The translations under genes were made by a program, and so were the position numbers. From Paludibacteraceae bacterium (GTDB lineage: Bacteria > Bacteroidota > Bacteroidia > Bacteroidales > Paludibacteraceae): DNA of 64,000 bases. Shown one piece after another: positions 1,833-21,727 of the stretch (position 1 is its first letter; the number at the start of each line of letters is the position of its first letter). The stretch covers positions 62,001 through 126,000 of the forward strand of contig JAFVDD010000052.1 in NCBI GenBank assembly GCA_017478725.1. Reading direction: 5' to 3'. Under the pieces are notes generated by a model that saw nothing but the letters and a program-made list of their open reading frames with translations, was not told the DNA's origin and ran no database searches.

Positions 1833-3491
1833 ATGAAACATTCCTCTACTCTCTTAGCCGCATTGCTGCTAATCCTTTCAACGTTCACTTTTCACCTTTC
1901 ACCTTTAATGGCCGTCACGTACTGCGCCACCTCGTCATGGGGCTATGCCGGCAATGCCGTTACAGGCGGCGGCAACGCCACACCTACGCTGGTCAAGAGC
2001 GAAAGCGAACTGAAGAATGCGCTCAAGAACAGCAACAAAATGGTGATTATCACAGAGAACATCACTGTTAGTAACCAAGTATCCATTGAAAATAAAAACA
2101 ATATTACTTTAATGGCTTTGCCCGGCAAGAAACTGACCAGCACATCACAAGAGGCGGGCACGTCCGGCATTTTGGCTATTAAAACGAGCACCAATATCAT
2201 TCTGCGCAACATCATTTTTGAAGGCCCCGGTGCTTTTGACTGCGACGGACGGGACAACCTCACTGTAACCGGTTCGCAGAATATATGGGTGGACCACTGC
2301 GATTTCCAGGACGGCTGTGACGGCAATTTCGATATCAATAAGACGTCGGACAACATCTCTGTTACATGGTGTCGTTTCCGGTACTTGAAATCACCTCGCC
2401 CACGCGATGCGGGTGACACCAATACCGATCACACGGACGACCATCGTTTTTCCAACCTTGTCGGCTCCAGTTCAAGCGACAAACCCTCTGACGGCACCTA
2501 CAACATCACCTATGCCTTCTGCTGGTGGGACGAAGGATGCAAACAGCGCATGACACGCTGCCGCAACTGCGAACTGCATTTCCTCAACTGCTACTGGAAC
2601 AGCTCCGTGGCGGACTACTACGTCGGACCGGAGAACGCCAAATGCTATTTCGAGGGTTGCACCTTTGCCGGCAAAGCCAATAGCGCCTCGAAAATATGGA
2701 GCCCTTTCAGCGGTTCCACCAACTATTGCACCTTCGTCAACTGTACCGGTAACCTGCCTGCCAATTCAAGCACTGCGGTTGCTGCACCATCCTATTCCTA
2801 CGACCATCTGTCTGCCGCCACGGCAAAGAACTGCGTCACCAACTCTGCCTGCGGCACAGGCGCCACACTCACTGTCACTACCGCCGGCAAGGTGAGCAGC
2901 AGCTGTGACGAAGAAGAAGAGGAAGAAGATACCGGCAAAACAGCTGTCAGCGGCACCTGTTGTATTGACCTCAGTCTGGGTGAAGCACCTACAACGTCTA
3001 ACGGAGGTATTCCCTCCGAGTTCAAGAAAACGGTGGTGGTCGTTAATCTGGCAAAAGGAACATGGGACCAAGGTTATCTCAACATGGGCGGCAACGCCGA
3101 CTATATTACCTTTGATTTCTCGGCCTACAACAGCACGATTACCTCCGTGGAGTTTGACGTAACTATTCCTAATTGGACTGAAGAAAAGAATACGGTTGCA
3201 TATCACTGGAACAGCAATCCGAATACCCAATACAACATAGCCGGTTCCGCCAAAGAGACCGTTGCACTCACAGCACCGGAGAACGCCACGTCGTTTACTA
3301 TCCAGCGCTCTGCCGGAACCGGTACACGCATTAGCCAAGTATGCTTTGTGCTGAAAGCGGAGGATGTCACAGGAATAGAAACACCCCTCAAACTCTCCGG
3401 CTCTCAAACTCACAAAGTGCTGCACAACGGACAACTCTATCTGAAACACCAAGAACGATTGTACGATGTACAAGGACACCGTATCCGATAA
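1833..3491 (+). CDS. Secreted pectate lyase, PL1 family, with C-terminal accessory domain and sorting-like tail
   Basis: 552 residues. A signal peptide (about 1-27) precedes a right-handed parallel beta-helix of the PL1 type (about 30-360), with the family core motif NIWVDHCDFQDGCDGNFD. PL1 enzymes cleave polygalacturonate by Ca2+-dependent beta-elimination. A linker with six glutamates encoded by a GAA/GAG run (near residue 360) leads to a beta-rich domain of about 120 residues, likely carbohydrate-binding. The protein ends with the short tail KVLHNGQLYL...YDVQGHRIR, shared with four other secreted proteins in this window. Part of the signal peptide (FTFHLSP) is encoded by heptamer repeats. 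No other pectin gene is nearby, so it may act alone. The following DUF1963 gene starts inside its last codons. Confidence 0.85.
   Translation: MKHSSTLLAALLLILSTFTFHLSPLMAVTYCATSSWGYAGNAVTGGGNATPTLVKSESELKNALKNSNKMVIITENITVSNQVSIENKNNITLMALPGKKLTSTSQEAGTSGILAIKTSTNIILRNIIFEGPGAFDCDGRDNLTVTGSQNIWVDHCDFQDGCDGNFDINKTSDNISVTWCRFRYLKSPRPRDAGDTNTDHTDDHRFSNLVGSSSSDKPSDGTYNITYAFCWWDEGCKQRMTRCRNCELHFLNCYWNSSVADYYVGPENAKCYFEGCTFAGKANSASKIWSPFSGSTNYCTFVNCTGNLPANSSTAVAAPSYSYDHLSAATAKNCVTNSACGTGATLTVTTAGKVSSSCDEEEEEEDTGKTAVSGTCCIDLSLGEAPTTSNGGIPSEFKKTVVVVNLAKGTWDQGYLNMGGNADYITFDFSAYNSTITSVEFDVTIPNWTEEKNTVAYHWNSNPNTQYNIAGSAKETVALTAPENATSFTIQRSAGTGTRISQVCFVLKAEDVTGIETPLKLSGSQTHKVLHNGQLYLKHQERLYDVQGHRIR
1876..1910. 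repeat. Heptamer repeat inside pectate lyase signal-peptide codons
   Basis: Five 7-base units (TTTCAAC, GTTCACT, TTTCACC, TTTCACC, TTTAATG) encode the hydrophobic core of the signal peptide. The same unit occurs at 20533-20567 in an unrelated lipoprotein gene, where it also produces the peptide FTFHLSP. Confidence 0.8.
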
Positions 3492-3999
3492 ACCGAACCA
3501 CTGGTGGGGATTGGCAACTCTGCCGGAAGAGATATCCTATCCCTACAACGGCGAAGCAAACCCCATGACCCTCGTCTGTCAGTTCGCCTATGGCGAAGGA
3601 TTGGTCTATATCTTTGCCGACCTTGACTATTTCTTCGGAGACATGGAGGCGGACGGCGGTCATATCGGCGAATGGAACAGCAACTTGTACCAAGTACTAT
3701 ATACCGACCATCTGTCTGATCTCCATGAGCACGAGATACGCTATGCGGACGGCAGCAGTGCTGTGCCCGAACCACGTGACACAACCAACTACGAATCGCG
3801 CATCCTGAGCAAACCTACCTGCTGGCAAGACGAACTGACACAAGACTACCCCGGCTATGAGGTGCTGGTGCAACTGGAGGAAGACGATGACATCGGTTTG
3901 CGGTTCTACGACTGCGGCACGCTCTTCTTCCTTATCAAGCCCGCAGACCTCGCCGCCCGTAACTTCAATAACGTCAAATGTGTCCTCTACTCCTACTAA
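3466..3999 (+). CDS. DUF1963 (YwqG-like) family protein
   Basis: 177 residues with no signal peptide, so cytoplasmic. The N-terminal stretch NHWWGLATLPEEISYPYNG matches the start of the DUF1963/YwqG fold (G.p.LP...yP), followed by a strand pattern with LVCQF, GLVYIFADL and VLYTDHL. The C-terminal part has FYDCGTLFFLIKPADLAARNF, close to the family's usual ending. The start at 3466 overlaps the pectate lyase end by 26 bases; a later start would remove conserved residues. It is shorter than typical YwqG proteins (about 260), lacking the N-terminal helical part. The biochemical role is unknown. Relatives are known from immunity-gene arrays of polymorphic toxin systems, which fits the heterogeneous neighbours, but that role is inferred. 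Confidence 0.7.
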   Translation: MYKDTVSDKPNHWWGLATLPEEISYPYNGEANPMTLVCQFAYGEGLVYIFADLDYFFGDMEADGGHIGEWNSNLYQVLYTDHLSDLHEHEIRYADGSSAVPEPRDTTNYESRILSKPTCWQDELTQDYPGYEVLVQLEEDDDIGLRFYDCGTLFFLIKPADLAARNFNNVKCVLYSY

Positions 4000-4013
4000 A
4001 TTTATAATTCGTA

Positions 4014-4041
4014 ATTTTTAACTTTTAATTTTTAATTCTAA
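4014..4041. repeat. AT-rich heptamer repeat before Sel1 gene
   Basis: Four 7-base units (ATTTTTA, ACTTTTA, ATTTTTA, ATTCTAA) fill the gap between the DUF1963 gene and the first Sel1-repeat gene and reach the ATG at 4041. Confidence 0.7.
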
Positions 4042-5297
4042 TGTCTGCTTTCTCACCTGAATTATTCAAAGCGGCATCGGGCGCCAAGTCCCTGCCAATC
4101 AACAAAGAACGTATCGACGACCCCTCCTTCGTGACTCCTGTTTACGAAGACTATGCCGCCAAAGGAGATTTAACGGGTTATATGACCGCCCTTTGGCACG
4201 GTGCTGCCGTGCGGGATATCGAGTGCCTGCAGGTCCTGCTCTATCTGGCTATCAAATGCCACGAGCCCGAAGATGTAATGGATTTGATCGATATGCTGAT
4301 TGATACGGACGATGACTCCTTCATTCCCCTTTGGCAAAAACTTAGCCAAATTATCAAAGATGCAAAGAAATGGCCCAAAGAGATTTATGAGGACGAAAAG
4401 AAGTATAAGTCCCGTTTGTCGGCTGAGTTTGAGAACGCCCTCTGCGTATCGGGCCCCCCGGACTGTCTGTTCGGTGAGGCCGAGCCGGAACTGCTGCGCG
4501 CGTATCTCAATAATGTAGGGCGTCAGTCCGATGCAAAAACACCCGACGAGGAGATAACTATTAACAACTGCGTGCCGGAAGAGACGAAGAACTACTGGCG
4601 CGGACTGTACCGCCGTGATGACTGCTCCTCCAACCAAGAGGTTATCTATCACGACGCGCTCACCTATGCGCAGAAAGGTGACCCGTTCGCGATGCATGTG
4701 GTCGGATACCTGCTCAATCATGGCATCCAGACCAAATACTCTAATCCTAATATCACCCTCCTCGAATGTGATCATCAGAAAGCTTTGCCGTGGCTTAAAC
4801 GCGCCGCCGATGCCGGTGTACCCGAAGCCTGCTATGAGGTGGCTTGCGCCCTATTCAATACGTGCTATGTCTCTACCTCTCGCGAGTCGTGTACGCCCGA
4901 GATGATGCACTACATCAAAAAAGGCGCCGAACTCAACGAGCGGCATTGTTTGGAGCGGTGCTTCCAATGGGCTGAGAATGACGAAGAGGCGTTCGGGTAT
5001 CTGGTTCGCCTTGCCGACGCATGGCACAAGCATGAATACAAACTCAAACTCGCTGAGTATTACGAGAAGGGTCGCGGTTGTGAGAAGGACGAGAAGAAAG
5101 CCTTTGAACTCGCCGAATATGTCTGGAAGAACTCTTCCGCCAGCCCGTACGACAGCAGCTATGAAGACTCGGTGGAACTCCTCTACCGCTATCTGCGCGA
5201 AGGTATCGGCTGCGAACCCGACCCCGAACGCGCCGGCAAAATATACTGCTGGTACAAGGACGACGAAGACCGCATGTGGGAACTTTTAACAAAATAA
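4041..5297 (+). CDS. Sel1-repeat (TPR-like) protein A
   Basis: 418 residues, no signal peptide, acidic. The second half contains Sel1-type alpha-helical repeats: PFAMHVVGYLLNHG with KALPWLKRAADAGVPEA, then LAEYYEKGRGCEKDEKKAFE and YRYLREGIGCEPDPERAGK. The first half (about 1-200) has no motif I recognise. Sel1 repeats are protein-protein interaction scaffolds. This is the first of two Sel1 proteins in the cluster (the other is at 9003-10340); each is followed, directly or after small genes, by an NPCBM-repeat secreted protein. Function unknown; a cytoplasmic partner or immunity-like role is inference. Confidence 0.75.
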   Translation: MSAFSPELFKAASGAKSLPINKERIDDPSFVTPVYEDYAAKGDLTGYMTALWHGAAVRDIECLQVLLYLAIKCHEPEDVMDLIDMLIDTDDDSFIPLWQKLSQIIKDAKKWPKEIYEDEKKYKSRLSAEFENALCVSGPPDCLFGEAEPELLRAYLNNVGRQSDAKTPDEEITINNCVPEETKNYWRGLYRRDDCSSNQEVIYHDALTYAQKGDPFAMHVVGYLLNHGIQTKYSNPNITLLECDHQKALPWLKRAADAGVPEACYEVACALFNTCYVSTSRESCTPEMMHYIKKGAELNERHCLERCFQWAENDEEAFGYLVRLADAWHKHEYKLKLAEYYEKGRGCEKDEKKAFELAEYVWKNSSASPYDSSYEDSVELLYRYLREGIGCEPDPERAGKIYCWYKDDEDRMWELLTK

Positions 5298-5325
5298 ATG
5301 ACTAAATTGTAAATGACTAAATTGT
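5296..5325. repeat. 15-base tandem duplication
   Basis: AAATGACTAAATTGT is repeated twice in tandem and followed by a partial third copy (AAATGAT). It starts over the stop codon of the Sel1 gene and fills the 38-base gap to the next ATG. Confidence 0.75.
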
Positions 5326-5335
5326 AAATGATATT

Positions 5336-5638
5336 ATGACAGCAGCATTTGTAAATTTGTATCAGAGCTACAGCGACCGCGGGGCGTTTGTGCAATCGGG
5401 TCTGTGGCAGAGTTCCGAAGTGGACGAGTCCGAAATCGTGGTAGGAGAGAAACTGCCCCATTGGCCCAGTTTCGATAAACCGATAGTGACTAACTTTAAA
5501 CCCGGCTTGCTCGAACTGGACTATCACGGCAAGACCTTCACGATCGCCTCCGGCGAAGAAGTACAAATCGACAGCTCGCCCTTCTCGCAGGAATACGGCG
5601 TGAGTTGTTATATCCTCAAATGTGTCAAAGTAGTGTAA
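5336..5638 (+). CDS. Small unknown protein, possible paralogue of the next gene
   Basis: 100 residues, cytoplasmic, no family recognised. The segment LLELDYHGKTFTIASGEE resembles AVFHYKGEDFFVEFGKS in the next gene: a hydrophobic strand, Y-H/K-G, then F and G. This suggests two diverged copies of one small beta-rich fold. One base separates its stop codon from the ATG at 5640, so the two are very likely co-translated. Confidence 0.6.
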   Translation: MTAAFVNLYQSYSDRGAFVQSGLWQSSEVDESEIVVGEKLPHWPSFDKPIVTNFKPGLLELDYHGKTFTIASGEEVQIDSSPFSQEYGVSCYILKCVKVV

Positions 5639-5639
5639 T

Positions 5640-5957
5640 ATGGCAGTAATTAAAGTTACCGGTTACGAGATTTCCAGCGACCCGGGGATACAAAACATTT
5701 CGTCTTACAAAGGCGAGACGGATACCAAAGACATCACGCCCGATATGGATTTGGAGAGACTTATTACAGATCCCTGGTGGTGCAGTGCTATCGGACCTAA
5801 GTTCAAAAAACTCACCTTAGTAGAACTGCGTGACACGGGTGCAGTCTTTCACTATAAAGGCGAAGACTTCTTCGTCGAGTTCGGCAAATCCCAAAAAGTA
5901 GAGCAAGTGGGCCTCTCCTACGCCTACGGCGAACTATGGGTCGAAGTGAAACAATAA
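5640..5957 (+). CDS. Small unknown protein, possible paralogue of the preceding gene
   Basis: 105 residues, no signal peptide, no family recognised. It has a WW pair (residues 46-47), then KKLTLVELRDTGAVFHYKG, a strand-turn-strand pattern shared loosely with the preceding 100-residue protein. It starts one base after the upstream stop and ends 15 bases before the NPCBM-repeat gene, so it is part of the same operon. Confidence 0.6.
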   Translation: MAVIKVTGYEISSDPGIQNISSYKGETDTKDITPDMDLERLITDPWWCSAIGPKFKKLTLVELRDTGAVFHYKGEDFFVEFGKSQKVEQVGLSYAYGELWVEVKQ

Positions 5958-5972
5958 AATACTATAACAATT

Positions 5973-8360
5973 ATGAAAAAATCTTTCTTTCTACTTATTC
6001 TCTTGCTGGGCAGCGTCGCTGCGCAGGCACAGGTCTATCTGACGGATAAATACAAACCGCAGGAAGAAAAGGCAAGTTACTATTCTTCGACTGAAGAGTT
6101 TTCGCACGATTTCTGCCACTCCCTAAGAGTAAAAGGTGGTATGCGCTTTATTTATCAAGATTGGGGAGGAAAAGTGCAAACATATAAAATCAACAAAGAA
6201 TATAGCACATTAACCTTTTGGGTTGGTCCGGATTATGAAGGGGGCAAAGGAATCTTGGTTATTGAGGCGGATGGCGAACCTATTTATGACGAACCCCTAC
6301 ATCACTATTATGCCCCACGTTTGGTCAAATTGGATATTAAGGGCGTTGAAACATTGGTATTCAAGGTCGTTGATCTTGATATGAATATTTTATTGGCGCA
6401 TATTCAACTATGGAAAGAGAATGAAACTGTTATTCCTGATAGTATTGGTATTGAACCGCCAAGCAGAAAGACTCAATTGGTGGAAGAAGTGTTGCCTTAT
6501 TACCTAGGAACGGAGATTATAAAGAAAGTAGAGTATCACCTTGGCGATAACTATTACTATGATAGACATATAGATAGTATCAGTATGGATCGCCATCTTT
6601 TCCAATCGGGATTGCAGATCACATCCCGTCAAGGACTATTCAATAGTATAGAAGATTTTGCTTATTTCTGGTTGAACAAAAAGTACGAGAAAATCTCTTT
6701 TGTTATCGGTCCGCGGGATAATATCAGCTCGCACGCTACGTCATGGTTCGTGATCAAAGGTGATAAGGATAAAATCCTCTACGAAGAGATTATTAGTCAG
6801 ACGGATTTGCCGCGGCAAGTAGTGGTAGATGTGTCGGGTCAAGACCGTATTTGTTTTTGTACCGAGTTGCGCGGTTCCGATACCTTCGGAGGCATCGTCT
6901 TCGGTGTAGTGGATATATGGGCTTATACGAAAAACGACCTCGCCGATGTACCGAAGGAAGGTTTGGTTAACCCCAATAAAGAGAAAATGGCAGCATTGCC
7001 GTCGCCTTGCCCGCTTATCTCCAAAATACCGTCTTTCTCGTATCACGGGAAAGCGCATCCTGATGCAGTCATATTTGATGGCAAGTCACGCCACCTGACC
7101 TTCTCCATGGGCGGCGAGAAGTTCAATCAGGGACTTATCTTCACCACGGGTTCAAACCTCTGGAACGACAATATCGACTGCTATTTCATGTTCGACCTCG
7201 GCGGCGAGTTTGACTACCTCAGTTTCTATGCCGGAATGCTCACCAAGCAGCGCGCCCTCGCGGATGACAGTATCCGTATCTACGCGGACGGCAAACTGAT
7301 TCTGGACACCATCATCCACTGCGCTTGGCCCAACCAGTACTTTGAAATACCTATCAACAAATGCCGCAAACTGACCTTCGCCAAACCCGGCAACGGTACG
7401 CTCAACAAAGACTGTTATATCTGCCTTGGCGACCTCGCCGTTTATCGCGGCAAGCCCGTCAAGCACCACCTTTTCACACATGACCGGCCCGAGTGTCCCG
7501 AAGAGGCAGACCTGATTGACCTTTGCGGCAAGCCCTATTTCCACTACGTGGGGCGTTACCTGTCCAACATCACTAACTTTGATTTTGAGGACTGCTTCAT
7601 GGACGGTTCCACCAAACGCCGCTCGTTCCACATGAAAGACGGCACGCAGATATACAAAGGTGTGATGCTGGAAGCGAACAAACCGCCTTTCTTTGAGGAC
7701 GCGACGCTGATGGACGTAGCCATGATAGGTCTGATGGGCGCCGGCAGTTCGCTCATGAGTTCGGACGTTGCCGCCTATACGGGTGTCACAGCCGGCGCCA
7801 GTCCGGTTGCCCTGGTGGCGTTGCCGCTCATGACTCAAAGCGGCGGACAAGCGTCGGTGGCGTCGTTCAACACGTACGGCGAGTATCAAACCTGCACGTT
7901 CACTATCGCCAACAAGTCCGAATACTGGGACGCGATGGATGAGCTGCTCCACCTCGGCGACCGCAAAGACGAGCCGTTCATACTCAATGTGCTGGCGGAC
8001 CAGCGTATCGTCAAGCAAATCGAGCTGCGCAACCGCATGGAGCCGCAGACTTTCACCGTGCCGCTCTATAACAGCAGTTCGCTCACCTTCTGGATGGAGC
8101 CGCGCGACGTACGTTCCGGCCAGTTCGTGCTCTACGACATGACGGTCAGCAAGCAGCCCTACACGCCCGCCAAACAATGCTGGGAAGTGACCTATGAGCA
8201 GTCCGGTGCTATGCAGACCATCTACGGCTGGCTCACCGAACAGGAAGTGCTGGAGAACATCGCCGAGATGCGTGCCGACCCGTCTGTCAGCAACATCTCT
8301 TACCGCCCCGCCTCCGCCAACGACCGCCATGCCTGCGAACAACTATTTGACAACCACTAA
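5973..8360 (+). CDS. Secreted protein with NPCBM-like beta-sandwich repeats (paralogue A)
   Basis: 795 residues with a signal peptide (MKKSFFLLILLLGSVAAQAQ). About four segments resemble NPCBM/NEW2-type carbohydrate-binding modules, with the recurring pattern 'Y..ISF.iGP...(G)...i..dgk.ilye....p....vdvsG...l.f'. They lie near residues 70-150, 225-320, 410-500 and 645-735; the clearest is YEKISFVIGPRDN near residue 228. Between the third and fourth is a hydrophobic Gly/Ala-rich stretch (IGLMGAGSSLMSSDVAAYTG). No catalytic domain is recognised, so it may bind glycans or cell-wall material at the surface. It is paralogous along its full length to the broken gene at 10359-12725. The NPCBM assignment is by pattern only. 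Confidence 0.65.
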   Translation: MKKSFFLLILLLGSVAAQAQVYLTDKYKPQEEKASYYSSTEEFSHDFCHSLRVKGGMRFIYQDWGGKVQTYKINKEYSTLTFWVGPDYEGGKGILVIEADGEPIYDEPLHHYYAPRLVKLDIKGVETLVFKVVDLDMNILLAHIQLWKENETVIPDSIGIEPPSRKTQLVEEVLPYYLGTEIIKKVEYHLGDNYYYDRHIDSISMDRHLFQSGLQITSRQGLFNSIEDFAYFWLNKKYEKISFVIGPRDNISSHATSWFVIKGDKDKILYEEIISQTDLPRQVVVDVSGQDRICFCTELRGSDTFGGIVFGVVDIWAYTKNDLADVPKEGLVNPNKEKMAALPSPCPLISKIPSFSYHGKAHPDAVIFDGKSRHLTFSMGGEKFNQGLIFTTGSNLWNDNIDCYFMFDLGGEFDYLSFYAGMLTKQRALADDSIRIYADGKLILDTIIHCAWPNQYFEIPINKCRKLTFAKPGNGTLNKDCYICLGDLAVYRGKPVKHHLFTHDRPECPEEADLIDLCGKPYFHYVGRYLSNITNFDFEDCFMDGSTKRRSFHMKDGTQIYKGVMLEANKPPFFEDATLMDVAMIGLMGAGSSLMSSDVAAYTGVTAGASPVALVALPLMTQSGGQASVASFNTYGEYQTCTFTIANKSEYWDAMDELLHLGDRKDEPFILNVLADQRIVKQIELRNRMEPQTFTVPLYNSSSLTFWMEPRDVRSGQFVLYDMTVSKQPYTPAKQCWEVTYEQSGAMQTIYGWLTEQEVLENIAEMRADPSVSNISYRPASANDRHACEQLFDNH

Positions 8361-8373
8361 AAAAGGATACGCT

Positions 8374-8991
8374 ATGAACTATTTACCACTCGACGGCAAA
8401 CCCGATTCATTAAAACGCTACACGCAGATTTGCAACGATTGTTGCGACCAAGCCGAAAAGATATTGCATGAGATGGACGACCCGAGTCCGATAGCGGACC
8501 TCGTTCGGGAAGTGATGTACTATGCACGGTATATGGGGCAGTTCGAGCACACACTGCCGCAGGCTTATACTGCCGCCAAACGTATCGCGGAGTGCCTGTT
8601 TGAACACCCGCGCTTAATGCTGGAACTGAAACTCCTGCAGTTGGAGTTAGTCCATTATGCAGAGGCTATCGAAGGGCATGAGTTCGATATAACCGAGGAC
8701 TTGCGCGCGGAAATCAATACGCTTCGCTACAATATTCAAATGGCAGACGAGGATCACTTGGAAGCTATTCGTGACGGCAGAATGCTCAAATCCGACCCTA
8801 TTGAGTGGACCAAAGCGTACGAAGAGGCGATTGATGACGCGGACAAAGAGGCGTACGCGAACCTCACGGACGCCCCGCGGGGAATGGGGTTCTGCTTCGG
8901 ATACTGGGCAGAGAAACGCAAAGCCCTCGCCAAACGAGGCATCGAATGGCGTAGTCCGGGTGAGATGAACCCCAGAGTCATGTTTGATTAA
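8374..8991 (+). CDS. Unknown helical cytoplasmic protein
   Basis: 205 residues from the ATG at 8374, which follows an AAGGA sequence and lies 13 bases after the upstream stop. An in-frame start further upstream would read through the end of the upstream gene and is unlikely. The protein is predicted mostly helical and acidic, with a central segment LELKLLQLELVHYAEAIEG and a C-terminal GMGFCFGYWAEKRKALAKRGIEW. No family recognised. It sits between the first NPCBM-repeat gene and the second Sel1 gene (11-base gap), so it belongs to the same operon. Confidence 0.65.
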   Translation: MNYLPLDGKPDSLKRYTQICNDCCDQAEKILHEMDDPSPIADLVREVMYYARYMGQFEHTLPQAYTAAKRIAECLFEHPRLMLELKLLQLELVHYAEAIEGHEFDITEDLRAEINTLRYNIQMADEDHLEAIRDGRMLKSDPIEWTKAYEEAIDDADKEAYANLTDAPRGMGFCFGYWAEKRKALAKRGIEWRSPGEMNPRVMFD

Positions 8992-10358: not shown

Positions 10359-12725
10359 ATGAAACGATTGTACTTCTTATTTTTCATTGCGTGCGCGGGG
10401 CTGGCAAGCCTCCACGCTCAGGCTTACCTTGTGAATACCTTGCAACCGACGGAGAAAAACAGACTCTCTGTCTCGTCCACCAAGACCGCTTCCGAATGGG
10501 GGGAAGACATGCTGCTGAAAATGAGTTATATCTTCCGGTCCAACGGCGGATTTCTCTTGGAAGGTGACGCACACGGGCTTATCGGCGGCGACAATCACGG
10601 ATATGTCACCTATCAACTGAACGGCCAATATGACAAGATTTCATTCTGGCTTGCCCCGGGCTTTACCACACAAGGAGTTGCGCCCCTTGACAAGACTATC
10701 CTTACCGTCAGGGGTGACAACAAACTGCTATACGACAAGCCGGTTTTTCATGCGGACCCGCCGCGCTTCATCACGCTGAACGTCAAGGGCGTAAAGGAAC
10801 TGAAGTTCAAACTGTTGATCGGCGAGATTGACCTTTCTTTTGCCAAAGTGCAACTATGGAAAGAGGGCGTTGAGGTTGTCCAGCCGTCCCTCTATCCCTC
10901 CTTGCCTGCCGGCAAAGTGCAGCTCGTGGAACAATTAGTGCCCTATTTCACCACGCGTTACGTCAATCCGATTACGCAACAAAAGAAAGTCAGAGGCCTT
11001 GAATACGCGTCCTAGTCCATCAACATGGCGAGACACACTTTCACCTCGGGTTTGTCTTTCACCTCTTCCGAACAACTCATGGGCGAGCGGCTGGACTACT
11101 CCTATTTCTGGCTGAACAAACGATATGACAAATTATCCTTTATCCTCGGTCCGCGAGACAACCAGAGTTCGAACTCTACGGCCTGGCTCGTCATCTACGG
11201 AGACAACAAGAAGATTCTCTACGAAGAGGTTGTTACCCAATCCGATCTTCCGCGGCAGGTGGTAGTCGATGTATCCGGACAAGAGCAGATATGCTTCAGC
11301 AACGAACTGCGTTCGAATGATTTTCTAGGCTCAATCACTTTTGCCGCCGTAGATATGTTTGTCTATCCCAAAGGCGACACGTCCGTGCCGAAGGCAGGGT
11401 TGGCGAATATCAACAAGGACAAGGTAGCCGGTCTGCCGTCGCCGTGCGCGCTCATGTCGAATATCCTGCCTTATTCCGTCCGCGGTGTGGCTGCCGCCAA
11501 GAACACCATGTTCACCGGCGAATCGTCGTATATCACATTCTCGATGGGAGGGGTCAAATATATGGAAGGCATCATTCTGGCGCCCGGCACCAACCTCATG
11601 GATGACAAGATAGACGCGTACGCCACTTTTGACCTTGCCGAAGAGTTTGACTATGTATCCTTCTACGCCGGCGCACTGACCAACCGCCGTGTGCTGGACG
11701 ACGGAAGACTGCTCGTCTATGCCGATGACCGGCTCATTCTTGATACCGTCATTTACTGCACACGGCCCAACGATTATTTCGAATTGCCGCTCCATAAATG
11801 CCGCATGCTAAAGTTTGTCAAACCCAGCACCAGCAGCAACAAGCAGATCTTCATCGGACTGGGAGACATAGCCCTCTATCGGGGCCGACCGGCAGAGAAC
11901 GACCTCTTCTATCACGAGTATCCCGATTTCCCGGAGGAAGCGGACTTGATTGACCTCTGCGGACGGCCGTATTTCCATTTCGTCGGACGCTACCTGTCCA
12001 CCCTCACGAACTTCGATTTCAATGACTGCTTCTATCCCGGCGGTACACAACGCCAGTTCTTCCAGATGAAGGACGGTTCGAAGATATACAAAGGGGTCAT
12101 GCTGGAAGCCAATGTGCCGCTGCCGTTTGAAGATATCCGGCTCACGGACGCCATTACGATGTTCCTTGTCGGAGCCGGAAGCGCGTTAAGCCACAGTGAT
12201 GTTTCCGCCTATACCGGAGTGACCGCAGGCGGCGGATTAGCGGGGGATATGGCTGTTCTCCAACTGATGAATCCGAAGAATAACGGACAGGCTTCCGTGG
12301 TGGCTTTCAATCCCTACGGACAATATGAGACCTGCACCTTCTCCATCGCCAACAAATCGGAGTACTGGGATGATATGTCCAAAGTCACTCATTTCGGCCA
12401 ACAAGTACAGGACACGTTCAAACTCTATGTTATCGCCGACCGGCAGTTAGTCAAAGAGCTGGATGTCTATAATACCATGGAGCCGCAAACGATTACCGTA
12501 CCCATTCATCAATGCCGTCAACTCATGTTCTGGCTTGCGCCGGGGGATTACCGTTCGGGGCAATTCGTGCTCTATGACATGAAGGTCAGCAAGAAACCTC
12601 TCCCCGCCATAGAGCCGGAAGTTAAAAGCCAAGAGCCGAAGCAGTCGGTACAGCCGGAGACTCCTGCAACAGTCTCTTCGCTTTTGGACTTGGTGGAAAA
12701 TCCCCAATCCGTATCGGTGGAATAA
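10359..12725 (+). pseudogene. NPCBM-repeat secreted protein (paralogue B), interrupted by one in-frame amber codon
   Basis: The frame would give 788 residues, against 795 in paralogue A at 5973. It starts with a signal peptide (MKRLYFLFFIACAGLASLHA) and is homologous throughout. A TAG at 11013-11015 stops translation after 218 residues. The frame continues directly with SINMARHTFTSG, which aligns with SISMDRHLFQSG of paralogue A, so no bases are lost. An ATG at 11025 could allow reinitiation of a 566-residue remainder, but without a signal peptide. A C-terminal extension (about 45 residues, rich in E, P and Q) is absent from paralogue A. A strong terminator follows. Either a recent nonsense mutation, a sequencing error, or readthrough; I favour the first two. 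Confidence 0.8.
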
Positions 12726-12819: not shown

Positions 12820-13575
12820 TTAGTCTTTGAACTTGGCGCCGATGAACTCGCGGTTGAGGCGTGCGATGTTCGCCAGGGAAACAGATTTCGGGCACTCGGC
12901 AGCGCAAGCACCAGTGTTGGTACAGTTACCGAATCCGAGTTCGTCCATCTTGGCTACCATCGCTTTCGCACGCGCCGCAGCCTCCACCTTGCCTTGCGGC
13001 AGGAGAGCGAGTTGCGAAACCTTGGCCGCCACGAAGAGCATCGCCGAACCGTTCTTACAAGCGGCCGCACATGCGCCGCAACCGATACAGGACGCAGCGT
13101 CCATCGCCTCGTCGGCTACCGGCTTCGGAATGGGTATTGCGTTGGCATCGGGTACACCGCCGGTGTTGACGGAAACGAAACCGCCGGCTTGCATGATCTT
13201 GTCATACGCGCCGCGATCGACCATGAGGTCTTTGATTACCGGGAACGCACGGCTGCGCCACGGCTCCACGGTGATGGTCTCGCCGTCTTTGAACTTACGC
13301 ATATGGAGCTGGCAGGTCGTGATGGCGGAGTCGGGTCCGTGGGGGTGACCGTTGACATACATCGAGCACATACCGCAGATACCTTCACGGCAGTCGTGGT
13401 CGTAGGTAACGGGGTCTTTGTGCTCTGCGATGAGTTGTTCGTTGAGGATATCAATCATCTCCAGGAACGATGCGCCTTGGAATACATGTTTCAGGTCGTA
13501 GGTCTCGAAATGTCCTTGCGCCTTGGGTCCGGCTTGACGCCATACCCGTACTTTAATATCAATATAACTATCCAT
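12820..13575 (-). CDS. frdB: Fumarate reductase/succinate dehydrogenase iron-sulfur subunit
   Basis: 251 residues. The plant-type 2Fe-2S ligands are Cys62, Cys67 and Cys70 (CREGICGMC) with Cys88. The C-terminal half has [11 protein letters not shown] (163-173) and [13 protein letters not shown] (218-230) for the 4Fe-4S and 3Fe-4S clusters. It carries electrons between the menaquinone site of FrdC and the flavin of FrdA at the inner membrane. In Bacteroidales this complex mainly reduces fumarate in the succinate/propionate fermentation pathway. It starts two bases after the frdA stop and is the last gene of the operon. Confidence 0.95.
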
Positions 13576-13577
13576 GA

Positions 13578-15773
13578 TTAATTCTTATAATTACGGGTTT
13601 TACGTTCTGTGAATTCATAATCAAGCGGCTCTTTGATGAGTTGCGGCTCTTGGTCCTCGCCCATGTATTTCCAGCAGCCTACATAAGAGAACTTGTCGTC
13701 CTGACGGAGTGCCTCGCCTTCCGGCGTCTGGTATTCCTCGCGGAAGTGACCACCGCAAGACTCTTCGCGATGGAGGGCATCCACTGCCATCAGACGACCG
13801 ATCTCGATGAAGTCCGCCAGACGGAGGGCTTTCTCCAACTCGTTGTTGAGGGCGTTCGCCTCACCCGGAATATAGACATTGGTCCAGAACTCTTTCTTGA
13901 TGGCGTCGATCTTCGCGATACCTTCTTTCAAGCCTTCCGCCGTACGACCCATGCCGACAAAGTCCCACATGATGAGACCAAGCTCTTTGTGGATGGAATC
14001 CACCGAACGTTTTCCTTGGATAGCCATCAGTTTGTCAATCTTGTCCTGAACACGCTTCTCTGCCTCAGCAAACTCAGGCAGGTCGGTGCTCATACGCGGA
14101 ACGCCGATCTGGTCGGAGAGGTAGTTCTGAATGGTGTAAGGCAGTACGAAGTAACCGTCCGCGAGACCTTGCATCAGCGCCGAAGCACCGAGACGGTTCG
14201 CACCGTGGTCAGAGAAGTTCGCCTCACCGATACAGAACAGACCCTTGACGCTCGTCTGGAGCTCGTAATCCACCCAGATACCACCCATCGTATAGTGGAT
14301 AGCGGGGAAGATCATCATCGGGTTCTCGTACGGGTTCTCGTCCACAATCTTCTCGTACATCTGGAACAGGTTGCCGTATTTCTGTGCCACTACGTCTTTG
14401 CCCAGACGCTGGATAGCCTCAGAGAAGTCAAGGAACACAGCCAGACCGGTGTTGTTCACGCCGTAGCCCTTGTCGCAACGCTCTTTGGCAGCACGCGAAG
14501 CCACGTCACGCGGCACGAGGTTACCGAACGCCGGATAGCGACGCTCCAAGTAGTAATCGCGGTCCTCTTCAGGAATATCACGACCCTTGATCTCGCCGGC
14601 TTGCAGACGCTTGGCGTCCTCCAGTTTCTTCGGCACCCAGATACGTCCATCGTTACGGAGCGACTCAGACATCAGCGTCAGTTTGGACTGGAAATCACCA
14701 TGCTTCGGGATACAGGTCGGGTGGATCTGTGCGTAGCAGGGATTAGCGAACAGAGCGCCGTGGCGGTACATCTGCATAGCAGCCGAACCGTTGGACGCCA
14801 TGGCGTTCGTGCTCAGGAAGAACGTGTTGCCGTAACCGCCCGAACCGACTACTACGGCGTGCGCAAAGAAGCGCTCGATGCGGCCGGTAACAAGGTTACG
14901 GGCGATGATACCGCGTGCACGGGGTTCGCCGTTCTCGTCTTTGATCATCACGATGTCCAGCATCTCGTAACGCGTGTACATCTTCACTTTGCCTTTGCCA
15001 ATCTGGCGGCTCAATGCGCTGTAAGCGCCGAGCAGCAGCTGTTGGCCGGTCTGACCCTTGGCGTAGAACGTACGGCTGACCTGTGCGCCGCCGAACGAAC
15101 GGTTGTCCAGCAATCCGCCGTACTCGCGTGCGAAAGGTACACCTTGTGCTACACACTGGTCGATGATATTATTGGAAACCTCCGCCAAACGATACACGTT
15201 CGCCTCGCGGGCACGATAGTCACCGCCTTTGATCGTATCATAATAGAGACGATACACAGAGTCACCGTCGTTCTGGTAGTTCTTCGCGGCGTTGATACCA
15301 CCCTGCGCTGCGATGGAGTGCGCACGGCGAGGACTGTCTTGGATACAGAAATTCAATACATTGAATCCCATCTCAGCCAACGAAGCCGCAGCGGACGCAC
15401 CTGCCAGACCCGTACCTACAACGATGATGTCGAGGCGGCGTTTGTTAGCGGGGTTGACGAGTTTCTGATGATTCTTGTAGTTCGTCCATTTCAACTCTAA
15501 CGGACCCTCGGGGATCTTCGCATCCTTCGGGGTGATGACCTTCGTCTCTTTCTTTGGAGCAGCCTTCGGAGCAGCCTCTGCTTTCGGATCTTCTGCCGGT
15601 GCCATTATTTCCTCAGCGGCAGCCACGGCTGCTTTGCCGGCTTTCTTGGCAGCTTCGGTCACAGCCTCCACAGCCTCTTTTACCTCCGCGCGTTCGGCTA
15701 CTTTTTCCACTTTCTCCTTAATCACTTCTGCTGCTTTCTTGGCAGCGTCCAGTATTTCTTCTTTCTTTGCCAT
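13578..15773 (-). CDS. frdA: Fumarate reductase/succinate dehydrogenase flavoprotein subunit with N-terminal Lys/Ala extension
   Basis: 731 residues. The FAD-binding motif [15 protein letters not shown] begins at about residue 118 and the FAD-linking His region is [12 protein letters not shown]. Active-site and cap segments ([36 protein letters not shown]) are present. The core starts near residue 86 ([18 protein letters not shown]), as in ordinary Bacteroidales proteins of about 650 residues. Residues 1-80 are an unusual extra region of Lys, Ala and Glu ([20 protein letters not shown] and on), which looks like an amphipathic helix followed by an Ala/Pro/Lys linker. No other good start lies between. 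It follows the inserted AT-rich gene pair rather than frdC directly. Confidence 0.95.
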
Positions 15774-15790
15774 ATTATAATATGTATTAT

Positions 15791-16255
15791 TTATAAATTA
15801 CACAATATTACAATGTATAGTATAAGTATATGAGCCGTATCATAAAAACAATGCAGCCATTCCTGAGTCTTCAAAGATGCTTTATCAGAACGCTTTCCAT
15901 AAGTAGATATTATAAGACCTGATGTTATCCATACGCTGCATGTTATACTCAAGCCTATAGTCATTATAAAATCGTTTACATCTTCAAATTTGGTACTAAA
16001 GAACAGTCCATATAAAAACAACGAGTACGCTGTAATCATTGCACATAGCATTATTATTTTATACCAGAATGAATATTCTTTGTTAATGGCAACTAATATT
16101 ATCATTTGTACTATAAAGATGGCACTCAAAATAGATAAAACAATCTCCATTCCATCAATGGTATATTTAGCAAAAAAATATATTAATGCTATTATCACGG
16201 ACAACTCTCTGATGACTATCGAAGTAAATGGTATATTTACAAATCTTCTTCCCAT
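15791..16255 (-). CDS. Unknown polytopic membrane protein, candidate immunity partner
   Basis: 154 residues with about four to five hydrophobic helices (near 12-30, 38-58, 67-87, 96-116 and 136-153) and few charged residues. No family recognised. Its start overlaps the end of the preceding lipoprotein gene by 19 bases, so translation is probably coupled. The DNA is far richer in A+T than frdA and frdC on either side. Size, topology and pairing with a glycine-rich protein resemble bacteriocin immunity proteins, but no sequence match supports that here. Confidence 0.6.
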
Positions 16256-17163
16256 AATACAGAACTGTAGTAATACGTTGACAACATGCCATTAAGAAGC
16301 AATACATCTTCTTCGGCTAATCCGAATTGGCTAATTATTTTCATTACAGACTGGGTATAATCATGTTCATCGTTTGAGGAGATATTCATGAAAGTATCTG
16401 TATACTTATCTATTATTCTTTTATAATCAGCATTAACATTATGTAATTCATTGTCATTCTCTAATAATATATATTTCTCTCCTAATATATTTTGGATATC
16501 TACCCGATTATTGTATTTGCATATGCCATTTATCTCTAAGTAATCCAAAGTATAATTTATAGCATATTCTGAAGATGGTTTTTCTATAAAGTCTTGCCAC
16601 ATTTCTTGAATAATTAAGTTATGGTATAGACCTATATTTCCGCCAAAAATATCTTCGGAGAAGAGAGGAGTATCCTCGCATTTTTTTATTGAGTATCGCT
16701 TCCCTTGACGTCTCCTGACAGCATTGTTTGGTATATCTTTCTCGCCTGAAACTGCCATTGCAGAACTAACTACAGCAAAAGCCAACCCCGATGTCAATGC
16801 ATCTACAGCTGCACCTGTGGCAGAGCCGATACCTGGGCATATCACTGTTCCCATAATAACGCCTTCAGGTATTCCTGTAAGCACCCCGATTCCAAAGCCC
16901 AACATATCTTGCTTTATGATATTATTCTTATCATGTCGTTTTTTCGAATCCGAGTTACCGTCATTGGGTGACTTTATGCGTTGACAAGAAATATCTTCTC
17001 CGCCTGATGAACTTACATAAGCCAAACTTATGGAATCGATTTTTTGGACAAGATTCTGTATATCATTTGATTGTGCAATCTTGAACTCGTTGTGACGAGA
17101 ACATGAGACACTTGTTAATACCATACATACTAACAGATGTACTATAATTAACTTACTTTTCAT
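16237..17163 (-). CDS. Unknown putative lipoprotein with glycine-rich hydrophobic segment
   Basis: 308 residues. An N-terminal hydrophobic signal ends in a weak lipobox (LTSVSC, Cys21). A Gly/Ala-rich hydrophobic stretch at about 87-140 contains GFGIGVLTGIPEGVIMG and CPGIGSATGAAVDALTSG, spaced like a glycine zipper and similar in character to pore-forming bacteriocin segments. It is followed by a basic patch RRRQGKR (about 149-155) and a hydrophilic C-terminal half. It begins three bases after the frdC stop, in very AT-rich DNA. No family recognised; an exported toxin or envelope protein are both possible. Confidence 0.6.
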   Translation of the reverse strand: MKSKLIIVHLLVCMVLTSVSCSRHNEFKIAQSNDIQNLVQKIDSISLAYVSSSGGEDISCQRIKSPNDGNSDSKKRHDKNNIIKQDMLGFGIGVLTGIPEGVIMGTVICPGIGSATGAAVDALTSGLAFAVVSSAMAVSGEKDIPNNAVRRRQGKRYSIKKCEDTPLFSEDIFGGNIGLYHNLIIQEMWQDFIEKPSSEYAINYTLDYLEINGICKYNNRVDIQNILGEKYILLENDNELHNVNADYKRIIDKYTDTFMNISSNDEHDYTQSVMKIISQFGLAEEDVLLLNGMLSTYYYSSVLWEEDL

Positions 17164-17166
17164 AAT

Positions 17167-17859
17167 TTAGCAAAGCATTCCGATGCCCATGCCCAGATAA
17201 TACAGTACTACAATGGTGAACGGAGCTACAACAATCGATGCTACTACCGTGCTGATCACCTCCACGCGCTTCTGCCATTTCAGGTTGTTCAGTCCCATGG
17301 ACGTCATAGCCGAACCTACACCGTGATTGAGGTGCAGCCAGAGAACAACGAACCACAACAGATACAGTACGCAATATACCTGGCCCCAGACAGGCTCGGT
17401 GAACAGCGCTTTCACATAGGCGGCACCGTTCTGCGGATCAAATGCGCCCGTCTGAATGCCCGTCAGTTCGGCAAACTGCATCTTGAACCAGAAATTGTAC
17501 AAATGCAGGCAAAGGAAACCAAGGATAATAAAGCCCAGCACGAGCATGTTCTCACTCTCCCATGTCACGCCTTCTTTCTTGCCGCGAACCTCATAGCGGT
17601 CATTGCCGCGGGCTGCACGGTTCTGAATAGTCAGGTACAAGCCGTAGCAGAAATGCACCAGCACCAGAAACGCAATGCCCAGCGAGCCGATGACGGCGTA
17701 CCAGTTGGCACCGAGCAGACGGCAGATGGTGTTGTACGCCTCCTCGCTGAATACCAGCGCAAGGTTCATACAGCCGTGGAACAACAGGAACAGCACCAGC
17801 GCCGCTCCGCTGAGGGTCATAACGAACTTACGGCCGACAGATGAATCTTTTAACCACAT
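17167..17859 (-). CDS. frdC: Fumarate reductase/succinate dehydrogenase cytochrome b subunit
   Basis: 230 residues with five membrane helices, the di-heme cytochrome b558 type used by Bacteroidales. His residues in helices are visible in LFHGCMNLALVF, LVHFCYGLYLT, LCLHLYNFWF and LHLNHGVGSAM. It anchors FrdAB to the inner membrane and exchanges electrons with menaquinone. It is the first gene of the operon, downstream of the promoter at 17923-17953. The next gene, three bases on, is not frdA but an unrelated AT-rich insert. Confidence 0.93.
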   Translation of the reverse strand: MWLKDSSVGRKFVMTLSGAALVLFLLFHGCMNLALVFSEEAYNTICRLLGANWYAVIGSLGIAFLVLVHFCYGLYLTIQNRAARGNDRYEVRGKKEGVTWESENMLVLGFIILGFLCLHLYNFWFKMQFAELTGIQTGAFDPQNGAAYVKALFTEPVWGQVYCVLYLLWFVVLWLHLNHGVGSAMTSMGLNNLKWQKRVEVISTVVASIVVAPFTIVVLYYLGMGIGMLC

Positions 17860-17922
17860 AAAATAGTTTGTGTTTTTTAGATAAATATTATTGTTAATTA
17901 TTGTTTACCCTTTTTCAGCGTA

Positions 17923-17953
17923 CAAAATTACTGCTTTTTTTTGACATACGCAA
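17923..17953 (-). promoter_or_regulatory. frd operon promoter (left arm of inverted promoter pair)
   Basis: Read on the minus strand, TTGCG (17953-17949) stands for the -33 element and TAATTTTG (17930-17923) is the -7 box. The 25 bases from TTGCG to the TA of the -7 box are identical to the rpmH promoter at 18099-18130, in inverted orientation. The 362-base gap 17860-18221 holds these two promoters and the 11-bp repeat, and no gene. Confidence 0.8.
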
Positions 17954-18010
17954 GCGCACACGCATTTTTTCTGTAATTATTTGTATTTATTGCAATTACA
18001 TGATAGGTTA

Positions 18011-18065
18011 TCGGGAGCATCTCGGGAGCATCTCGGAAGCACATCGGAAGCAAGTCGAGATCAAA
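18011..18065. repeat. 11-bp-period tandem repeat, TCGG class, copy B
   Basis: TCGG occurs at 18011, 18022, 18033 and 18044, and TCGA at 18055. Units are TCGGGAGCATC (twice), TCGGAAGCACA and TCGGAAGCAAG. It sits between the two divergent promoters of frdC and rpmH. Confidence 0.85.
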
Positions 18066-18098
18066 TTTACCCTAAAAACGCAAAAAAATGCACAAAAA

Positions 18099-18130
18099 TT
18101 TGCGTATGTCAAAAAAAAGCAGTACCTTTG
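18099..18130 (+). promoter_or_regulatory. rpmH promoter (right arm of inverted promoter pair)
   Basis: TTTG at 18099-18102, a 20-base spacer, and TACCTTTG at 18123-18130 match the Bacteroidota housekeeping promoter. The arm mirrors the frd promoter on the other strand. Confidence 0.85.
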
Positions 18131-18168
18131 CACGCTTTTTTCGTCGGTCAATAGGCTCGACACCCGTT

Positions 18169-18189
18169 CAGCTGACAGCTGACAGCCCT
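18169..18189. repeat. CAGCTGA heptamer repeat in rpmH leader
   Basis: CAGCTGA twice, then CAGCCCT, in the untranslated leader between the promoter and the rpmH ATG. Confidence 0.65.
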
Positions 18190-18221
18190 AATAGTAATCA
18201 CACACTAAAACCTATAAAACA

Positions 18222-18380
18222 ATGAAACGTACATTTCAACCTTCGCAGCGCAAGCGCCGCAACAAACACGGTTTCCTCGAGAGAATGGCTACCGCTAACG
18301 GTCGTCGCGTTTTGGCTGCCCGCCGTGCTAAAGGTCGCAAGAAAATGACCGTAGCCGACGAGGGACGCCACAAGTTTTAA
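18222..18380 (+). CDS. rpmH: 50S ribosomal protein L34
   Basis: 52 residues beginning [18 protein letters not shown], the invariant L34 start, with the basic core [17 protein letters not shown]34 is a small protein of the large ribosomal subunit that binds 23S rRNA. It stands alone, with its own promoter (18099-18130) and a terminator just after it (18412-18445). It is not followed here by rnpA, the usual partner in many bacteria. Confidence 0.97.
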
Positions 18381-20794: not shown

Positions 20795-21727
20795 ATGCCC
20801 AAAGCCCGATCCGACATATTCCGGGAATACCACACATGGCTGCGTCTGGAGCGTGGCTATTCGTCCCATACTATCGAGGGTTATGAGCAGGATCTGCAGC
20901 GTCTGCGCACTTATTGCAGCGCACACACGGATTCCCAAGGGCAAGCCCTGGATCCTGTGAAACTGGATTTCGACCAACTGCAGGATTTTGTGTACGAGGA
21001 GTTCAAGATTATCACTTCTTCCACCACCCAGGCACGCGTCTTAGCCGGTATCCGCTCGTGGTACCGTTTTCTGCTCTACAAAGACTATATCGAGCAGGAT
21101 CCCTCCGAACTGATTGAGGGGCCCAAGAAAGCGCGGCATCTGCCTACGGTTCTGTCGCTGGAGGAAGTCAACCGGCTCATGGCGGCTATCGACCTCTCTA
21201 CCAACGAAGGCCACCGCAACCGCGCCATGCTGGAGATGCTCTACGGCAGCGGCTTGCGGGTGAGCGAACTCACCGACCTCCACCTCAGCCAAATCTTCCT
21301 CGACGAACATTACATGCTCATTCAGGGCAAAGGCAGCAAACAGCGTCTGGTGCCGCTCTCGCCCGTGGCGGAAGAGTGGTTCGGCTACTGGATGCAGCAA
21401 CGTGCCCACTGGCCGATCAAGCCCGAAGCCAAAGACATAGCTTTCGTCAACCGCTACGGACGGCCGCTCACGCGGGCAATGGTCTTCACGATCATACGCC
21501 GCCTCTGCGCCGAAGCAGGCATCACCAAGACAATCTCGCCCCACACGCTCCGCCACTCGTTTGCCACCCATCTGCTGCAGAACGGAGCCGACCTCCGCGT
21601 GATCCAGCAGCTACTCGGACACGAGGACCTCGCCACCACCGAGATATACACCCACGTGGACGTACAAAACCTGCGCCAAGCAATTCTCCAATACCACCCC
21701 GCTAATAAATTGAAAGGTGAAAAGTGA
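20795..21727 (+). CDS. xerD: Site-specific tyrosine recombinase XerD
   Basis: 310 residues. An N-terminal SAM-like core-binding domain (about 5-100) is followed by the catalytic domain. The full active site is visible: Arg155 in GSGLRVSEL, a Lys near 179 in GKGSKQR, His250 and Arg253 in HTLRHSFATHL, His276 in GHEDLA, and nucleophile Tyr285 in TTEIYTHVD. It resolves chromosome dimers at dif with a partner recombinase. Its last codons (KLKGEK) are made of GAAAAGT heptamers, and its stop overlaps the GTG start of the next gene. Confidence 0.92.
   Translation: MPKARSDIFREYHTWLRLERGYSSHTIEGYEQDLQRLRTYCSAHTDSQGQALDPVKLDFDQLQDFVYEEFKIITSSTTQARVLAGIRSWYRFLLYKDYIEQDPSELIEGPKKARHLPTVLSLEEVNRLMAAIDLSTNEGHRNRAMLEMLYGSGLRVSELTDLHLSQIFLDEHYMLIQGKGSKQRLVPLSPVAEEWFGYWMQQRAHWPIKPEAKDIAFVNRYGRPLTRAMVFTIIRRLCAEAGITKTISPHTLRHSFATHLLQNGADLRVIQQLLGHEDLATTEIYTHVDVQNLRQAILQYHPANKLKGEK

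Follow-up and report, generated by a model that had tools for sequence, protein, structure and literature searches.

The stretch of DNA analyzed here (the window, 64,000 nucleotides in length) comes from a gut bacterium of the family Paludibacteraceae, whose group is mostly known from ruminants. The window carries, on its minus strand, the fumarate reductase genes frdC, frdA and frdB, an operon order (frdCAB) that is also given in PMC5210497. Between frdC and frdA lie two further genes, here called LpX and MemX. The features of the locus, in the direction of transcription, are as follows.

17923..17953, minus strand: promoter-like site upstream of frdC, TTG followed by TAATTTTG; candidate driver for the whole operon
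17167..17859, minus strand: frdC, cytochrome b subunit of fumarate reductase and upstream flank of the insert; called from its open reading frame and from homologues that adjoin frdA in the own genus
16237..17163, minus strand: LpX, a 308-aa lipoprotein and putative toxin; called from its open reading frame and a leave-one-out profile
17101..17112, minus strand: lipobox of LpX, last residue Cys21; read from the sequence, with C21 invariant in the seven rows of alignment A1
16750..16890, minus strand: Gly-rich hydrophobic region of LpX, aa 92-138, with segments 92-108 and 122-138
16696..16716, minus strand: RRRQGKR, a polybasic stretch of LpX (aa 150-156) and possible protease site, unconserved in the family
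16618..16632, minus strand: GxxHN motif of LpX, aa 178-182; alignment A5 (16 rows) keeps H181 and N182 in 90% of rows or more
16252..16272, minus strand: C-terminal YYSxxLW motif of LpX, aa 298-304, with Y298, S300 and W304 invariant in A1 and W304 in at least 90% of A5
15791..16255, minus strand: MemX, a 154-aa membrane protein of about five helices and putative immunity protein
13578..15773, minus strand: frdA, flavoprotein subunit of fumarate reductase and downstream flank of the insert; called from its open reading frame and search matches
12820..13575, minus strand: frdB, iron-sulfur subunit of fumarate reductase; named by eye from sequence and operon order

LpX and MemX face the same direction and share 19 nt (16237-16255). 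The stop of frdC is followed after 3 nt by the start of LpX, and the stop of MemX after 17 nt by the start of frdA; this overlap and these short gaps give frdC-LpX-MemX-frdA the layout of one operon. The GC content was 0.352 for LpX and 0.297 for MemX, versus 0.531-0.570 for the three frd genes, and the corresponding GC3 values were 0.307 and 0.284 versus 0.656-0.688. Among the 45 ORFs of the window (those of at least 100 aa, largely non-overlapping), the two genes had the lowest GC. The third most AT-rich ORF (38794-40410, minus strand; GC 0.425) encodes a protein of 538 aa in which a signal peptide was recognized by eye. Immediately downstream of the frd operon, a convergent gene (11025-12725, plus strand) encodes a protein of 566 aa that matches an NPCBM domain (PF08305, E 6.3e-10), and an XerD-like ORF (by eye) lies at 20795-21727, away from the frdC/frdA junction.

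We compared the frdC/frdA junction across related genomes, measuring the distance from FrdC to a conserved part of FrdA in genome searches. Of the 178 genomes of the own genus, 158 had an FrdC match and 152 had an FrdA match. Among the 150 matches listed for each, both genes lay on one contig in 136 pairs from 135 genomes, and 129 of these pairs were contiguous (no more than 477 nt apart), while 14 frdC matches had no frdA match on their contig. Seven of the listed pairs were more than 500 nt apart and held inserts (G000, G044, G098, G027, G033, G116 and G057). In the other genera of the family, for which 80 of the 168 listed genomes were searched, 64 of 70 pairs were contiguous. Six exceeded 500 nt, with genes between frdC and frdA in G214, G215, G209 and G228 and without genes in G338 and G357; in G213, the contig ended within or just past an insert gene, and frdA was found on another contig. 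We also inspected a set of 80 named loci of FrdC, which overlaps the own-genus set; their labels are Paludibacteraceae, Bacteroidales or Bacteroidia, and their sources, where given, were mostly ruminants. Of the 77 usable loci, 73 were contiguous, three had a BspA-type gene and one had a partner gene with a lipobox ORF.

The LpX-MemX pair of the window itself was found in one genome only. Among the matches listed, the two genomes nearest by FrdC identity, G066 (96%) and G153 (95%), have contiguous frdC and frdA and lack the pair; thus, a gain in the lineage of the window is the simpler account, and a loss elsewhere is possible. We saw no scar of a target-site duplication at the insert, and the short spacers of relatives were unlike either of its edges. 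The original prediction had described two AT-rich genes with a 19-base overlap between frdC and frdA, genes that are normally contiguous, and had taken them for an insert of foreign composition. The coordinates, the GC contrast, the contiguity counts and the absence of the pair from these close congeners agree with it throughout. One alternative is that MemX and LpX are accessory subunits that modulate the fumarate reductase complex. Their operon position would suit such a role; however, given that 129 of the 136 own-genus pairs listed have no insert at all and that LpX-type and MemX-type families also adjoin unrelated genes, we regard this as highly improbable.

The same junction has received other genes. 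A 552-aa leucine-rich repeat (LRR) protein is encoded there in G027, G033, G116 and G057 (L057, L059, L058 and L060, respectively), and the G116 copy was assigned by Pfam to the LRR_5/BspA type. G057 carries an RmuC gene besides the LRR gene, G209 carries two other AT-rich genes, and G228 carries a methylase-like fragment. All 18 genes that we assigned at occupied junctions are oriented like frd. The LRR gene was compared among the copies in G116, G027 and G033 (the G057 copy was left out): its dS was 0.029 between G116 and G027, where that of frdC was 0.86, and again 0.029 between G116 and G033, where that of frdC was 0.18. The near-identical block shared by G116 and G027 starts in the final 35-60 nt of frdC and stops about 180-280 nt into frdA. 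A dS far below that of frdC, together with a near-identical block reaching into the frd flanks, is the pattern of a recent transfer by homologous recombination. The frdC/frdA junction is therefore a recurrent insertion site that receives foreign genes. This transfer bears on the junction and is not direct evidence for the LpX-MemX pair, and the unrelated cargo indicates that the site is not specific to that pair. Consequently, the claim of an insertion in the frd operon holds for the pair but is incomplete as an account. The result for the junction, namely recurrent co-directional cargo with one case of spread by flank recombination, holds even without any reading of the pair as a toxin.

A junction so tolerant and prone to recombination might also carry LpX-MemX as a neutral or selfish passenger that is of no use there. 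The variety of its cargo (BspA-type genes in four genomes, RmuC in one, a methylase-like fragment in one, and others) and the recent spread of the BspA-type gene would fit this idea. However, the LpX and MemX frames are intact and overlapping with a spacing that suits translation, the assigned junction genes all face the frd direction, and genes of the partner type recur at this one site. We therefore consider a mere passenger quite unlikely.

LpX begins with a signal peptide with a lipobox at Cys21. The residues after the lipidated cysteine are SRHNE; the acidic signal that would hint at surface export is weak here, which counts against the toxin reading proposed below. Based on its sequence, we assign LpX to an unnamed, divergent family of Bacteroidota lipoproteins with four hallmarks, all of which are present in LpX: a lipobox, a hydrophobic segment rich in Gly, the GxxHN motif and, at the C-terminus, YS..LW. 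One or two hydrophobic segments occur in 15 of the 16 aligned members; by script, the GxxHN pattern was found in 14 of 16 rows (once as G..HR) and the strict YS..LW pattern in 10 of 16. As exceptions, the lipobox is missing in L055 and in L074 (whose start was placed at an internal ATG), the hydrophobic segment in L055, and GxxHN in L014 and L074. In a leave-one-out profile, LpX scored 113.3 bits, while the highest of its 300 shuffles reached 18.9, and its second half alone scored 70.5 bits. All 16 rows of A5 exceeded their own 300 shuffles, the weakest being L074 (27.4 versus 6.9).

A search with the single LpX sequence (E 0.01) gave matches in nine of 358 family genomes, counting the own genome and including the nonmembers G198 and G294. 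A seven-row LpX profile reached 37 of 358, with many of the weakest matches confined to the N-terminus. At the order level (1e-4), 10 of 295 genomes matched, the own genome counted; G631 and G595 are members, and five match at the N-terminal end only. At the phylum level (1e-3), 12 of 296 matched, again with the own genome counted, and G734 was inspected and found to be a member. Loci in G386, G439 and G066 and the C2 place in G631 were also inspected and rejected as non-members. The distribution is sporadic. No entry accounting for the family was found in Pfam, NCBIfam, PADLOC, PHROG or PDB sequences, and we found no description of it, or of cargo within frd, in the open-licence literature. 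The original prediction was correct in seeing a lipoprotein with a glycine-zipper-like segment beside a membrane protein of four to five helices, as the Cys21 lipobox, the hydrophobic segments and the five segments of MemX above the Kyte-Doolittle threshold indicate. It had, however, recognized no homologue, and this did not hold, since relatives were found in the own family of bacteria and in other families of the phylum (G631, G595 and G734). Neither conservation of the pair across the whole family with normal base composition nor membership of a housekeeping family, both of which were looked for, was found.

A small membrane or barrel-like partner gene adjoins the lipoprotein gene at 15 of 18 family loci, so that the two gene kinds, whose co-occurrence had been proposed as a check, are indeed paired elsewhere. 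This count leaves aside three short zipper-less relatives, in G036 and as second copies in G039 and G083. The partners are of three kinds. At nine loci (G000, G063 twice, G086, G039, G083, G214, G058 and G215), the partner is helical, with three to five predicted helices in roughly 130-170 aa. Four loci have a bPH2-type partner (G020, G050, G051 and G148) and two have a barrel-like partner (G631 and G595), while no partner was seen at the remaining three lipoprotein loci (G060, G162 and G734). For the bPH_2 model (PF03703), the L053 partner scored 23.1 bits against a gathering threshold of 22, L048 scored 13.6 bits and L052 gave no match; by BLAST, L048 and L052 were linked to the L053 partner with E values of 1e-34 and 2e-16. 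The G631 partner matched OMP_b-brl at E 0.0014, where its 19.3 bits fall short of the 28.7-bit cut-off, and the G595 partner was assigned by layout only. Elsewhere, too, such lipoprotein and small membrane gene pairs often lie in AT-rich DNA. Toxin-immunity evolution would be expected to keep the lipoprotein conserved while its membrane partners diverge and are exchanged, as is seen in this family.

Partner-like genes also recur at the frd junction itself. G214, from another genus, has a full related pair between frdC and frdA in reversed gene order. At the G098 junction, two partner-like genes stand without a lipoprotein, the G044 junction has one partner and a 66-aa lipobox ORF, and in G213 (L163) and G215 (L158) a single five-helix gene follows frdC without a lipoprotein there. 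Pairwise scores were judged against a background of 65 membrane ORFs, which included a relative of L011/L012 that affects those two rows only. Among 15 partner-type proteins, MemX and the second G098 gene were reciprocal best matches with a score of 79 (z 4.8/7.2; background maxima 73 and 50), a score barely over the MemX background maximum of 73. The G044 partner and the first G098 gene were likewise reciprocal best matches, with a score of 91 (z 8.2/7.4; background maxima 60 and 61). These two matches suggest that the G098 junction holds, side by side, relatives of two frd-junction partners. In addition, the frd partner of G214 had its best match, which was not reciprocal, in the lipoprotein-associated partner of G058 (score 76; background maxima 60 and 57).

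The lone gene in G213 and G215 is a putative orphan, judged by layout and place only, and no convincing homologue was found for it pairwise. Its two copies differ by 11 non-synonymous and five synonymous changes, whereas frdC and 457 frdA codons show no amino-acid change; this faster change, measured on few sites, could also mean weaker constraint. In a six-frame search, no lipoprotein remnant was found at the orphan sites of G098, G213 and G215, and the match in G044 covers profile positions 1-27 only, so loss of the lipoprotein at these sites is assumed here. A single family of helical partners was also considered and rejected, since the partners are too diverged for one profile and only the pairwise links hold. 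In the leave-one-out test, the number of shuffles out of 500 that reached the real score was 2 for MemX, 4 for G044 and 0 for the second G098 gene, and 202 for G214, 434 for the first G098 gene, 36 for G215 and 29 and 38 for the two G063 copies.

Taken together, the exchangeable partner types, the partner-like genes standing alone at the same site and the analogies described below make a toxin with its immunity protein the best reading of the pair. We propose that LpX-MemX may be a mobile two-gene antagonism module. LpX would be exported and lipid-anchored, a step for which the lipobox is the visible sign, and probably displayed on the envelope surface, where its Gly-rich hydrophobic region might damage the membrane of neighbouring cells; MemX would protect the producer from within its own membrane. 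The pair would have been placed in line between frdC and frdA such that the frd promoter stands in for the regulator that adjoins many of its relatives, and the same-site partner-like genes in some relatives would be orphan immunity genes. Judging from the anatomy of the locus, we give this reading, with its surface glycine-zipper toxin, membrane immunity protein, use of the frd promoter and orphan immunity in relatives, about an even chance. Among the observations that speak against a toxin, one family member (L055) has neither the lipobox nor the hydrophobic segment, and three of the 18 loci have no visible partner. No toxin or immunity model matched the LpX family, and PADLOC was blank for LpX and MemX. 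For the toxin-immunity claim of the original prediction, the support comes from the exchangeable partners, the partner-like genes standing alone at the same site, and analogy.

With regard to expression, the promoter-like call upstream of frdC depends on the octamer TAnnTTTG, which we take to be the promoter consensus. A scan of the minus strand from 15500 to 18230 found it at 17930 and 18069, before frdC, and at 17030 and 16651, inside LpX, with no copy inside frdC or in the 3-nt gap between frdC and LpX. With 47 octamers of this kind in the window, both strands counted, the site upstream of frdC could be due to chance, and the copies inside LpX mean that an internal transcription start for the genes downstream is possible. 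It is plausible, from this sequence arrangement, that LpX-MemX borrows the frd promoter.

Next, we considered known antagonistic systems. The nearest working analogue is Cdz of Caulobacter crescentus, in which the surface glycine-zipper proteins CdzC and CdzD, proposed to form pores in targets, are accompanied by the small inner-membrane immunity protein CdzI (PMC5380434). As described there, CdzC (86 aa) and CdzD (84 aa) are not lipoproteins and their type I export is encoded alongside; the likeness to LpX is one of description. This hallmark, type I secretion genes by short zipper proteins, was not seen by eye at our locus, where LpX has 308 aa, a lipobox and frd neighbours. BcpT/BcpI of Phocaeicola resembles our pair in that a lipoprotein toxin of Bacteroidales is followed by a small protective gene; by its description, BcpT is plasmid-borne, has 499 aa, is cut by C11 proteases at R65 and R199 and has a 57-aa lipoprotein as its immunity protein (PMC9308784). 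Fab1/RFab1 of Bacteroides fragilis, also likened to LpX by description, is a sporadic pair with a downstream immunity gene, RFab1, that also occurs as an orphan, and activation by fragipain has been shown for Fab1 (PMC8406203). BcpT and Fab1 show that secreted protein toxins followed by small immunity genes do occur in Bacteroidales. Proteolytic activation of LpX in the BcpT/Fab1 manner appears unlikely, since the family does not conserve the polybasic site: LpX has basic runs ahead of GxxHN at aa 74 and 150, and of the other rows among the 16 a single one has such a run.

The rAID arrays of Bacteroidales are similarly AT-rich (their detection rule is <41% GC) and consist of co-directional short genes without a toxin; they differ in that their immunity genes are those of T6SS and come with a tyrosine recombinase (PMC12247911). 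None of the occupied junctions that we inspected has a recombinase between frdC and frdA. Finally, the leaderless bacteriocin clusters described from Actinomycetota in PMC11580447 place bPH_2 membrane proteins by a membrane-active agent and replace them elsewhere with other membrane types, but their agents are short peptides that are active straight after translation. Each testable defining feature of Cdz, BcpT and Fab1 is either absent from LpX-MemX or left open by it. Several database matches were discarded. BSAP5b (NF053772) scored 20.5 and 13.3 bits against a curated 380 in two of 14 members, over residues 1-60 and 1-64 at the signal-peptide end, and did not match LpX. The YiaD/OmpA glycine-zipper, PdsO, LeoBC and phage tail/lysis matches lie over the Gly-rich part, and the spanin match lies over the signal peptide. 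A CASP_dom match in MemX (E 0.0039, 17.4 bits, cut-off 26.2) was taken as compositional.

Sporadic AT-rich cargo is typical for defence genes. LpX-MemX is cargo of this kind, and LpX might stop phage or conjugative entry at the surface in the manner of TraT, with MemX as its membrane co-factor. Weak TraT matches were obtained for two of 14 members (best E 0.015). On the other hand, no LpX relative was found in plasmid or phage records (tblastn, E 0.01), two scans of viral contigs with single proteins, of a kind that detects close relatives only, were empty, and PADLOC returned LeoBC only, in two of nine proteins (E 0.0003 and 0.012), where the matches fall on the Gly-rich part. We therefore consider such an exclusion or defence role unlikely. 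A wider form of the toxin-immunity reading can also be put forward, tentatively and with less expectation of being right than for the pair itself. The GxxHN lipoproteins may be an undescribed, Bacteroidota-wide class of lipid-anchored glycine-zipper toxins with immunity from exchangeable membrane proteins of at least three folds. A core respiratory operon would serve them as the site of insertion and expression, and species would exchange the genes for the toxins and for orphan immunity via recombination in the conserved frd flanks. If the toxin-immunity reading is true, then it would provide a testable antibacterial lipoprotein family in uncultured rumen and gut Bacteroidales, extend orphan immunity beyond T6SS and rAID, and mean that a central metabolic operon serves as a cargo site.

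The surroundings of the other family loci introduce one more possibility. Related regulator-like, membrane-anchored proteins occur in 11 of the 18 family stretches, although some of the BLAST links are weak (E 0.004-0.0004). One of these proteins has a SusR-like C-terminus (E 5.4e-5); HTH was otherwise called by eye, and the Pfam searches that were run gave no HTH match. DUF3244-like proteins adjoin four loci, and a weaker relative adjoins G162. Both kinds of neighbour would be in keeping with an envelope sensor or stress module, in which the lipoprotein senses, the small membrane protein relays to the membrane-anchored SusR-like regulator, and the module has become uncoupled at frd. However, the regulator is absent from both frd loci with a full-length lipoprotein (G000 and G214) and was seen at none of the occupied frd junctions, and partner-like genes with neither lipoprotein nor regulator make little sense for signalling. 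We thus regard the sensor module as a serious but less likely alternative and retain the toxin with its immunity protein as the best reading. Two further arrangements were seen beside the family loci. At L010 (G063), positions 2853-8395 hold a tandem duplicate of a regulator-like ORF, a small membrane protein and a glycine-zipper lipoprotein. Beside the lipoprotein loci of L011, L012, L014 and L049 lies a conserved block, 61-90% identical between genomes, with one gene for a DUF3244-like protein of 125 aa and one for a protein that is TPR/HTH-like by eye.
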